Assembly: GCF_024807035.1 (NCBI RefSeq)
Contig: NZ_JANUCQ010000003.1
Span: 186,001 to 250,000, forward strand
Length of the DNA: 64,000 nt
Source: Methanococcus voltae PS
Lineage (GTDB): Archaea; AGJL01; Methanococci; Methanococcales; Methanococcaceae
Reading direction: 5' to 3'
The notes under the pieces are model-generated. The model had not been told where the DNA came from. It saw nothing but the letters and a program-made list of their open reading frames with translations, and did not search any database. Position numbers and translations under genes: made by a program. This document shows positions 36,502 through 48,279 of the stretch, piece after piece (positions within the stretch are counted from its first letter, which is position 1; every line of letters begins with the position of its first letter).

Positions 36502-37425
36502 TTACATATTATAGTATTTTTCTAAAGGTGGAATAACTTGTTTTTTCCTAGACATTAAGCCTTCAATAAATACACTATTTTCTGGTACTTTTACATTGAA
36601 TGACGCTTCAAATGCTTCTTTATTACCACATACTAATACTTCACTGCCTTCTTTCATTATGTCGGTAATCAAGAATAATATTAAATCATAATTATCAGAA
36701 TTAACTCTTTCTTGAAGTAATTTATAGATTTCATCTTTTTTAGATTCAACTTCTGATGCATCGATAACCTCGGCTTGCCCTACACCAACCTTTTTACCAT
36801 TTAAGCTAAATTCTTTGTAGTCGATATCTAAAATTTCAGATGGTGCCATACTACCAACGGTAGATTTTGCCTTTAACATTTCAATACCGTAATCATACAT
36901 GTCTTTTATATTAGCAATTTCTGCAAGTTTAGTGGCTAATTCTTTATCCAATTCAGTTGTTGTAGGTGATTTAAACAATAATGTATCAGATAAAATTGCT
37001 GACAATAAGATACCTGCAATATCCGGTTTCAATTCTTTATTTTTAGCACCAATATAGTCTAAACTATTTCTAAAGTATAATTCAGATATTACAGATGCTG
37101 TTGAACCAATAGGCTTTGAAACGTAGATTATAGGTTCAGATGTAGAAATTCCCACTTTGTGGTGGTCTATAATACCTAATAATTTACCATCTTCTAAATC
37201 ATCAAGTGATTGTGACCTTTCAGCATGGTCTACCAAATATATCTGTTTTCCTTTTGCAGAGGTTATTGTTTCGGGTTCCATCAATCCAAATCTTTTTAAT
37301 ATAAACTCAGTTTCTGGATTTATACTCCCTTGTTTTGCTGCCATTCCATCTAAGAAATAAGCAAGTGCTATTGCTGAACAGACGCTATCTGTATCTGGAT
37401 TCTTATGTCCTACTACATATATCAT
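36502..37425 (-). CDS. ppaC: Manganese-dependent inorganic pyrophosphatase (family II)
   Basis: Hydrolyses pyrophosphate, pulling biosynthetic reactions forward. DHH-family metal motifs GHKNPDTDS, LVDHAE and IIDHHKV are at the N-terminus, and the DHHA2 domain ends with SRKKQVIPPL. The 307-residue length is the plain family II form without CBS domains. GGTGAAATT precedes the ATG. Confidence 0.95.
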   Translation of the reverse strand: MIYVVGHKNPDTDSVCSAIALAYFLDGMAAKQGSINPETEFILKRFGLMEPETITSAKGKQIYLVDHAERSQSLDDLEDGKLLGIIDHHKVGISTSEPIIYVSKPIGSTASVISELYFRNSLDYIGAKNKELKPDIAGILLSAILSDTLLFKSPTTTELDKELATKLAEIANIKDMYDYGIEMLKAKSTVGSMAPSEILDIDYKEFSLNGKKVGVGQAEVIDASEVESKKDEIYKLLQERVNSDNYDLILFLITDIMKEGSEVLVCGNKEAFEASFNVKVPENSVFIEGLMSRKKQVIPPLEKYYNM

Positions 37426-37608
37426 AATTTCACCGATTTAAAGTAATATTGAATATATATCTATTTTTATTATATATATTTAATTTTAGTAAATTTAATC
37501 AATATTTGGTTATAATCATAATTCTAAATATAATTTAAGTGATATCATTTTAAATTCAATTGCTTTGACCAAATATATTTTCAAAAAATACGTTGATAAT
37601 ATAATAGC

Positions 37609-37617
37609 TATATATAA
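37609..37617 (+). promoter_or_regulatory. Box A for the 37641 RNA candidate
   Basis: CTATATATA at 37609-37617 lies about 27 bases before the first base-paired position at 37641, the usual archaeal TATA distance. A second possible box, TTTATATT, starts at 37621. Confidence 0.4.
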
Positions 37618-37640
37618 CAGTTTATATTATGTAATATATA

Positions 37641-37880
37641 GCTTCAATAAACCGACCTACATGGAGCCTATGGATGACCTCGCAATGATAGAGGGTTCGA
37701 ATTTGAAGCAATATTATCGTATAAACCAACTTTTGGGCGAGTTATGAGAGTTTGCGTTGGCTTGCAGTGACCATAATACAGCAAAAGTTAGTAAACTGGT
37801 CTCGACATTTAGGGTTAGCCAATTGACATGGTATATTCCAAGTATGAAATTTGGTGTTGATGTCGAGATAAATTTTTAGG
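37641..37880 (+). ncRNA. Candidate structured non-coding RNA, family unknown
   Basis: An island of higher GC in a 643-base gap. GCTTCAA (37641-37647) pairs with TTGAAGC (37703-37709), enclosing CCTC/GAGG (37678-37681 with 37691-37694). CCAAC (37726-37730) pairs with GTTGG (37756-37760). TCTCGACAT (37800-37808) pairs with ATGTCGAGA (37860-37868), enclosing CCAA/TTGG (37819-37822 with 37851-37854), and T5 follows at 37873. CCAA at 37726 can instead pair with TTGG at 37733-37736, an alternative fold. A box A fits a start at 37641. It lacks the landmarks of tRNA, RNase P RNA and SRP RNA. No protein reading is convincing. Confidence 0.55.
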
Positions 37881-37942
37881 ACTATTTTTAAGTACAGTTA
37901 AAAAATTTAATTAAAGTTAATTTACACTATCAAATAATATAA

Positions 37943-37990
37943 TTTATATATTAGTAATTCAAATAATATAACAATTGAACAATTGTTCAA
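37943..37990 (+). promoter_or_regulatory. Box A and ArsR-type operator of the metal resistance operon
   Basis: TTTATATA at 37943-37950 predicts a start near 37973. The perfect 16-bp palindrome TTGAACAATTGTTCAA at 37975-37990 covers that position. SmtB/CadC-type sensors bind similar TGAAcA/TgTTCA inverted repeats. A further palindrome, GTATAATTATAC, follows at 37993-38004. Autorepression by the adjacent arsR gene is the likely use. Confidence 0.6.
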
Positions 37991-38068
37991 CTGTATAATT
38001 ATACGGATGCTAATAACTAAATTTTCTATTACATAATACATTATAATTATTAAAATAAGGTGTTAATC

Positions 38069-40830: not shown

Positions 40831-40945
40831 TAAATCTATTATCGCTTGGAGAGGACTATGCAATGTTTAAATACGTTGTAATACTATTATATTTTGGTAA
40901 TATTTTTTAATTAATTTGGAATATTTTAAGGACTATGGTGGAAAT

Positions 40946-41533
40946 ATGAAATTATTATTTGCTACAGGAAACATGAATAAAGTTAACGAAGCTAAACTAA
41001 TTCTAAAAAATTCAAAATATGAAATAGAACAGTTGAAGATACCATATCCTGAATTACAAGGTAATCTTGAAGAAGTAGCTGAATATGGTGCTAAATACGT
41101 TTATGATAAATATACGTTAAATAAAAAGATATCTAAAGATGGTTCGGGCATAATTGTAGAAGATAGTGGACTATTTATAGAATCATTACGAGAATTCCCT
41201 GGAACATACTCTAAATTTGTTCAAATGACTCTTGGAAATGAAGGTATTTTAAAATTACTTGGCACATGTACGAAAAGAAACGCATACTTTAAAACAGTTA
41301 TTGGATACTATAATGGCAAAGAACTTAAAACATTTGCAGGAACGGTTGAAGGCAAGATATCCTATAAAATAAGGTCAAATGGATATGGTTTTGCTTATGA
41401 TAGTATATTCATACCTAAAAATCATGAAAAAACATTTGCAGAAATGTTGCCTGAAGAAAAAAGCGATATTTCACATCGAAAAAATGCTTTTGTTAACTTT
41501 AAGAATTATATTGATTCTTTAAATTTAGAATAA
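40946..41533 (+). CDS. Non-canonical purine NTP pyrophosphatase (XTP/dITP, Ham1/RdgB family)
   Basis: Cleans the nucleotide pool by hydrolysing XTP and (d)ITP to monophosphates. The 195-residue protein has the family motifs [13 protein letters not shown] at the N-terminus, [11 protein letters not shown] with the catalytic aspartate, and YGFAYDSIF and SHRKNAF. The start ATG at 40946 follows GGTGGAAAT; ten upstream codons were rejected. It complements the endonuclease Q gene, which deals with deaminated bases in DNA. Confidence 0.94.
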
Positions 41534-47205: not shown

Positions 47206-47471
47206 GTTTTTTGATTTTTAATTTAAAACTAAGCTTATTCAAAGATTTTCAAATTAAGTAATAAGCGGAAATATCTTAAAATATAAAAAAATAGATTATA
47301 AAATAATAGAATATTGGATTCTATAGACATAAAGATATCCGAATAACAAATTTTGATAAAAAAATGACGTCATATCATAAATAAATAATTGTCAAATAAA
47401 ATTTATAAATGAAAAATAAGTTATAAAAATAAATTATAAAAATAAGTCCTTGGACCATAAAATACAGAAAG

Positions 47472-47546
47472 CGCCCTGGCCGGGATTTGAACCCGAGTCA
47501 CAGGAGTGACAGTCCTGTATGATAGGCCGAGCTACACCACCAGGGC
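47472..47546 (-). tRNA. tRNA-Asp(GTC), copy 1
   Basis: Full cloverleaf with acceptor GCCCTGG/CCAGGGC, loop CTGTCAC carrying anticodon GTC and discriminator G. The 3' CCA is not encoded. Last gene of the stable-RNA operon. Confidence 0.97.
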
Positions 47547-47559
47547 ATAATAAAAAAAG

Positions 47560-47678
47560 TGATCGGCAGCGTCATCTTGTTCCCACCATATGGCAGTACT
47601 TAAGAAATCGCTGGAGGGCTTAATTTCCGAGATCGGAATGGGATCGGATGGGACACCTCCGCTATGACCGCCGTATCA
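47560..47678 (-). rRNA. rrf: 5S rRNA, copy 1
   Basis: About 119 bases with the archaeal 5S core sequences CCGATCCCATTCCGATCTCG and GGAAATTAAGCC, and ends that pair as TGAT/ATCA then CGGC/GCCG. It lies between tRNA-Lys and tRNA-Asp, unlinked to 16S or 23S in this window. Ends are approximate. Confidence 0.95.
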
Positions 47679-47688
47679 ACAGCTAAAA

Positions 47689-47762
47689 CGGGCCCGAAGG
47701 GATTCGAACCCTCGACCGCCTGGTTAAAAGCCAGGCGCTCTACCAGACTAAGCTACGGGCCC
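47689..47762 (-). tRNA. tRNA-Lys(TTT), copy 1
   Basis: Acceptor GGGCCCG/CGGGCCC, loop CTTTTAA with anticodon TTT, discriminator G. CCA not encoded. Confidence 0.97.
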
Positions 47763-47847
47763 AAGTCTAACGAATAGTACTTATTAATTGCTTATGACAT
47801 TTGTATTCTAAATAGTGCAGATTTTATATTTCAAATTAAATATAAAG

Positions 47848-47922
47848 CGCCCTGGCCGGGATTTGAACCCGAGTCACAGGAGTGACAGTCCTGTATGATA
47901 GGCCGAGCTACACCACCAGGGC
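47848..47922 (-). tRNA. tRNA-Asp(GTC), copy 2
   Basis: Identical to the copy at 47472-47546. Confidence 0.97.
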
Positions 47923-47935
47923 ATAATAAAAAAAG

Positions 47936-48054
47936 TGATCGGCAGCGTCATCTTGTTCCCACCATATGGCAGTACTTAAGAAATCGCTGGAGGGCTTAAT
48001 TTCCGAGATCGGAATGGGATCGGATGGGACACCTCCGCTATGACCGCCGTATCA
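47936..48054 (-). rRNA. rrf: 5S rRNA, copy 2
   Basis: Identical to the copy at 47560-47678, in the same order between tRNA-Lys and tRNA-Asp. Confidence 0.95.
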
Positions 48055-48064
48055 ACAGCTAAAA

Positions 48065-48138
48065 CGGGCCCGAAGGGATTCGAACCCTCGACCGCCTGGT
48101 TAAAAGCCAGGCGCTCTACCAGACTAAGCTACGGGCCC
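48065..48138 (-). tRNA. tRNA-Lys(TTT), copy 2
   Basis: Identical to the copy at 47689-47762. Confidence 0.97.
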
Positions 48139-48143
48139 AAGAG

Positions 48144-48217
48144 TCCCGCGAGCCGGATTTGAACCAGCGACATGCGGATCTACAGTCCGCCGTTCTACCA
48201 GTCTGAACTATCGCGGG
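48144..48217 (-). tRNA. tRNA-Tyr(GTA)
   Basis: Acceptor CCCGCGA/TCGCGGG, loop CTGTAGA with anticodon GTA, discriminator A. Only five bases separate it from tRNA-Lys copy 2, so the genes share a transcript. Confidence 0.97.
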
Positions 48218-48279
48218 ATAATTCTTGGATATGCTTCTGATACGCTATTGCTAACAGTATTCGTATGTATTAAATTAAA

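Follow-up and report, generated by a model that had tools for sequence, protein, structure and literature searches.

A predicted three-hairpin box H/ACA guide RNA of Methanococcales with putative targets in the functional core of 23S rRNA

A 64,000-nucleotide stretch of the Methanococcus voltae PS genome (hereafter, the window) encodes, at positions 37638..37877 of the + strand, what is very probably a free-standing three-hairpin box H/ACA guide RNA, predicted to direct pseudouridylation of the 23S rRNA uridines equivalent to Escherichia coli U1915, U2504 and U2554. Its assignment to the archaeal box H/ACA class, which we regard as nearly certain, is based on an alignment of 19 homologues (A1), covariation and a lax Rfam match to HgcG at 22 bits. 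The original prediction for this locus envisaged either a free-standing small RNA or a long leader or sensor of the neighboring metal resistance operon. The former reading is supported by a conserved TATA box belonging to the RNA gene itself, conservation throughout the order Methanococcales and compensatory base changes.

Results

As initially noted, the RNA gene is a GC-richer island within an AT-rich gap, positions 37641-37876 having a GC content of 0.39 and the gaps on either side 0.146 and 0.16. The box A proposed ahead of the first stem is likewise present: the TATA box TATATATAA (37609..37617, + strand) lies ~30 nt upstream of this stem (~-32 to -24 relative to it), and TATA-like motifs at ~-28 to -35 are found in all 26 homologous loci. 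The ends of the RNA were placed ~25 nt downstream of the TATA box (37638) and at the close of the U-run TTTTT (37873..37877, + strand), a possible transcript end. T-rich stretches occur 3′ of the third hairpin in most homologues, with strict conservation being absent. The stem and T-run once described as a terminator-like end do exist, but the paired part closes the third hairpin at its base, and the U-run may still end transcription. The genome itself contains a single copy of the RNA sequence. A 60-aa ORF (37565-37747) overlaps the RNA and begins upstream of the TATA box of the latter, and for both reasons was dismissed as a gene. The + strand was fixed by virtue of G-U pairs retained across many sequences. 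Despite folding better than shuffled sequences (z -2.5), the - strand was rejected as the RNA strand because the promoter, the ANA boxes and the G-U pairs favor the + strand. The free energy of the whole RNA on the + strand equals that of shuffles (z 0.22) and is uninformative as evidence for the RNA.

Archaeal H/ACA hairpins consist of a lower stem, a pocket, an upper stem with tandem G-A and an ANA box; the tandem G-A forms a K-turn or K-loop above a GA stem of ~10 pairs, and the 3′ guide begins ~14 nt ahead of the ANA box. Three hairpins of this kind, all on the + strand, could be delineated in the window. HP1 (37641..37713), identified by matches to its covariance model (R2, see below) and rRNA complementarity, contains the previously described 7-bp lower stem GCTTCAA/TTGAAGC (37641-37647/37703-37709), the 5′ guide AAACCGA (37649-37655), the K-turn-like letters GA and UGA (37664-37665 and 37686-37688), the 3′ guide UCGA (37697-37700) and the ANA box AUA (37711-37713). 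HP2 (37726..37795) is indicated by compensatory changes in both stems, its fold in isolation, matches to model R3 and rRNA complementarity; it comprises a lower stem (37726-37734/37783-37791), the 5′ guide (U)GGGCG (37734-37739), tandem GA K-turn letters (~37747-37748 and ~37769-37770), the 3′ guide CAGC (37779-37782) and the ANA box AAA (37793-37795). HP3 (37800..37872), recognized through matches of model R1 to the third hairpin of HgcG and through rRNA complementarity, starts with the perfect 9-bp stem TCTCGACAT/ATGTCGAGA (37800-37808/37860-37868) that, together with the TTTTT following it, had already been noticed, and carries the 5′ guide AGGGUUA (37811-37817), tandem GA K-turn letters (37825-37826 and 37846-37847), the 3′ guide GUUG (37856-37859) and the ANA box AAA (37870-37872).

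In every hairpin, the 3′ guide begins 14 nt ahead of the ANA box, whose A positions are conserved across the alignments, and the GA and UGA letters are nearly invariant and located at the expected sites; a stem of 8+2 pairs fits HP2 and HP3, and HP1 requires a bulge. When folded singly, HP2 and HP3 each adopt the hairpin shape anticipated, the pocket being open, and HP1 has no unique fold. A second hairpin formerly drawn between CCAAC and GTTGG (37726-37730 with 37756-37760), with a mutually exclusive alternative, did not hold up: the letters are present, but homologues do not preserve their pairing (61.5% of cells pair, versus 58.7% in shuffles), and the proposed switch was rejected. Instead, the base of HP2 is built from CCAAC...TTTT paired with AAAAGTTAG, and the stems of this hairpin show compensatory changes.

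At the DNA level, homologues were detected in 21 of 41 relatives, and the 19 full-length ones make up alignment A1. Among the columns of A1 that never vary are those of the guide pockets, of the G-A letters and of the As in the ANA boxes. Covariation, for which an alignment of relatives had been proposed as a check, is strong. In the structure drawn by the archaeal H/ACA rule (51 pairs), 23 pairs display two-sided changes, amounting to 90 such cells, and neither value is reached in any of 500 shuffles; control structures slid along the alignment yield at most 14 pairs and 32 cells. RNAalifold, run unaided, produces 20 pairs with two-sided changes. Every lower stem is backed by covariation, as are the upper stems of HP2 and HP3, whereas the structure of the upper part of HP1 is without such support because this region is nearly invariant.

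With one covariance model per hairpin (R2 for HP1, R3 for HP2 and R1 for HP3), 297 archaeal genomes were searched. Matches to R2 and to R3 were obtained in 34 genomes each, all of them Methanococcales, whereas R1 matched 35 Methanococcales genomes and 14 outside the order. Among named genomes, the HP3 DNA pattern occurs in Methanococcales (including Methanocaldococcus sp. SG1) and in one probable chance match, with none in Thermococcales. Eight Methanocaldococcus genomes (G023, G024, G027-G029 and G032-G034) contain second, weaker matches to the HP3 model (27-38 bits), perhaps representing other H/ACA guides. A further H/ACA-like single hairpin with a weak HgcG match is present in two other Methanocaldococcus genomes (loci L053 and L054 of G022 and G026); a quick scan with L053 gave no convincing rRNA target.

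To predict targets, we scanned all uridines of the organism's own 23S rRNA and, the assembly being without 16S, of the 16S rRNA of a relative, and transferred positions to E. coli numbering through an alignment with the rrlB 23S of NC_000913. The top match of HP1, UCGA[U]GUCGGUUU (target uridine in single brackets), corresponds to U2604 of the own 23S rRNA (E. coli U2504), that of HP2, GCUG[U]UCGCCCA, to U2654 (E. coli U2554), and that of HP3, UAAC[U]AUAACCCU, to U2026 (E. coli U1915). These nucleotides lie in the peptidyl transferase center (U2504), the A-loop (U2554) and helix 69 (U1915). Per 1000 shuffled rRNAs, 1, 3 and 15 reach the scores of HP1, HP2 and HP3, respectively, counts that are only indicative and somewhat generous because the guide/stem boundaries at the pocket ends were set with the targets in view. 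The same uridine is ranked first by all HP1 variants, all HP3 variants and 21 of the 23 HP2 variants; HP2 has a near competitor in U1095, ranked first by the two Methanotorris-like variants. HP3 of the window includes one G-U within its 4-bp 3′ guide helix. Around the three targets, hardly any base differs among the nine Methanococcales 23S rRNAs compared. The third hairpin of Pyrococcus abyssi HgcG, treated identically, points to U1915. The published target of this hairpin (Pab40.3) is P. abyssi position 2016, the equivalent of Haloarcula marismortui 1956 (PMC4652768, PMC2584109), itself listed as E. coli 1915 (PMC2584109), so the known target was regained and serves as a positive control for the procedure. 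Judging from complementarity, HP3 very likely targets the equivalent of U1915 and HP2 likely that of U2554, and HP1 would probably target that of U2504.

Rfam at curated cut-offs gives no match within positions 37430-38060, in agreement with the initial failure to find a tRNA, RNase P RNA, SRP RNA or common riboswitch here. The label "unassigned" nevertheless had to be abandoned: the RNA is best read as a box H/ACA guide with an HP3 homologous to the third hairpin of HgcG/Pab40. A lax search of these 631 bases gave a single match of note, aligning HgcG (RF00064; Pab40, of the H/ACA type) end-to-end at 22 bits (E 0.00047, cut-off 77). This alignment, the presence of three hairpins in both RNAs and the clear homology of HP3 would be accounted for if the whole RNA were an HgcG/Pab40 ortholog sharing its three targets in P. 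abyssi 23S rRNA, namely 2588 (Pab40.1; PMC4652768, PMC6138745), 1932 (Pab40.2; PMC4652768) and 2016. We consider this very improbable. The score of 22 is far below the cut-off of 77 bits, which is exceeded by no Methanococcales genome; across the 36 genomes of the order, the HgcG model finds the same loci in most Methanococcaceae at 25 to 47.5 bits. In 18 HgcG loci, R1 matches the third hairpin in every case, whereas R2 (best E 0.1) and R3 (no match) give nothing significant, and the pocket of HgcG hairpin 1 differs from that of HP1 and points to another uridine, U2596 of the M. voltae 23S rRNA. In 12 of the 14 genomes outside the order, R1 matches where the Rfam HgcG match has its 3′ end; one HgcG locus (382332-382604 in G082) has the coordinates given for P. 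abyssi Pab40 (PMC4652768). Homology to HgcG as a whole was rejected. Because the R1 matches to the third hairpin of HgcG are reciprocal, HP3 is, by sequence comparison, homologous to Pab40.3 and the counterpart of Pab40.3/Af4.3, whereas HP1 and HP2 appear to be guides of Methanococcales, for which no relationship to Pab40.1 and Pab40.2 could be demonstrated.

Location of the RNA ~190 bases ahead of arsR, on the same strand, is what had suggested that it might be a leader of the arsR/P-type ATPase operon or sense metal for it, a reading that gene neighborhoods render extremely improbable. In two presumably Methanotorris-like genomes (G009 and G011) and in Methanocaldococcus, the RNA is flanked by ppaC and/or the XTP/dITP pyrophosphatase (XTPase) gene, without arsR, and two members of the window's own genus (G001 and G003) lack arsR within 1.5 kb. 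Moreover, the conserved parts of the RNA are guide pockets, ANA boxes and stems, and arsR has a palindrome of its own around TTGAACAATTGTTCAA (37973..37994, no strand assigned), a probable ArsR operator recognized from the sequence and a scan. A similar palindrome is found 3′ of the RNA in two other loci (L013 and L022). It is also very unlikely, albeit less so, that an H/ACA-shaped RNA of this sort acts mainly on other RNAs such as tRNA or mRNA, or helps rRNA to fold as a chaperone, instead of guiding pseudouridylation at the three sites: archaeal H/ACA RNAs have been suggested to have targets outside the ribosome (PMC4652768), but the pockets and their 23S targets are invariant or pair-preserving across the order.

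The guide RNA itself resides in variable surroundings, as traced by tblastn of the loci. In the window, the divergent neighbor is ppaC (inorganic pyrophosphatase; 36502..37425, - strand), a gene separate from the RNA, which also adjoins the RNA in the Methanococcus, Methanotorris-like and most Methanocaldococcus genomes examined. The XTPase gene (40916..41533, + strand) is separated from the window RNA by the arsR and P-type ATPase genes; it adjoins HP3 in G009, G011 and Methanocaldococcus. G009 and G011 display the order divergent ppaC, three-hairpin RNA, XTPase gene. In Methanocaldococcus, ppaC neighbors HP1-HP2, with HP3 forming a gene of its own upstream of the XTPase gene, which places a break or fusion point between HP2 and HP3. 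The complete genome G008 (locus L013) carries only HP1 and HP3, at the arsR/P-type ATPase locus, and no HP2 match was obtained anywhere in this genome. At the same locus, G010 (L022) has a two-hairpin copy devoid of HP2 and G013 (L023) an HP1 relic, each in addition to a full copy elsewhere.

Discussion

Transcription from the TATA box at 37609-37617 would yield an RNA of ~240 nt. By analogy with the known family, each hairpin would bind Cbf5, Nop10, Gar1 and L7Ae to give three H/ACA particles, the pocket would pair with 23S rRNA on both flanks of the target, and Cbf5 would convert the target uridine to pseudouridine, with modification expected in the peptidyl transferase center (HP1), the A-loop (HP2) and helix 69 (HP3). 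We lean slightly toward a broader scenario in which one guide RNA pseudouridylates three functional-core sites of 23S rRNA in Methanococcales, U2504 among them, a chromosomal break between HP2 and HP3 in Methanocaldococcus left two working guide genes (or, in the reverse direction, two genes fused), and G008 has since lost HP2, a natural deletion. How a multi-guide RNA gene can come apart is illustrated by the split form and by the copies with two hairpins.

Two of the predicted sites have counterparts modified by other means. The yeast snoRNA snR10 guides formation of 25S ψ2923 in the A-loop, the same nucleotide as predicted for HP2, and the bacterial enzyme RluC makes ψ2504, the same nucleotide as predicted for HP1; the former is a eukaryotic snoRNA and the latter a protein-only enzyme, as opposed to the archaeal guide RNA described here. 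For Methanococcus, a genetically tractable genus with few annotated RNA guides, the locus is a candidate guide gene that may account for three pseudouridines of the ribosome, and it fills an Rfam gap spanning the entire order Methanococcales, where the standard database fails to recognize it. For M. maripaludis, only 7 C/D box sRNA genes are listed (PMC4644070).

Multi-hairpin archaeal H/ACA RNAs are known and have been called rare (PMC7991803). The closest parallel is HgcG/Pab40/Pf7 (RF00064) of Thermococcales, with the related Af4 in Archaeoglobus. HgcG likewise bears three H/ACA hairpins in one RNA; the third is homologous to HP3 and shares its helix 69 target (P. abyssi 2016, H. marismortui 1956), whereas no relationship could be detected between its first two hairpins and HP1 and HP2, the predicted targets of which differ. 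The target region of HP3 is also that of the Haloferax HP2/Hvo2 RNA, a guide for 1956/1958 described as a homologue of Pf7 stem III, which in haloarchaea has two hairpins and a long spacer (PMC2584109) rather than three hairpins. The H/ACA motif reported for L2015, the helix 69 site, in M. jannaschii (PMC4652768, Supplementary Fig. S11) is almost certainly the stand-alone Methanocaldococcus HP3 seen here; the main text of that paper does not mention HP1, HP2 or the three-hairpin form of Methanococcus. Nor did our literature search, conducted in the main text of openly accessible papers, retrieve any report of these.

Elsewhere in the window, a tRNA-Asp/5S rRNA/tRNA-Lys unit (47471-48222) is repeated in tandem with a 376-bp period, the copies being 82% identical over the whole unit and adjoining further tRNAs.
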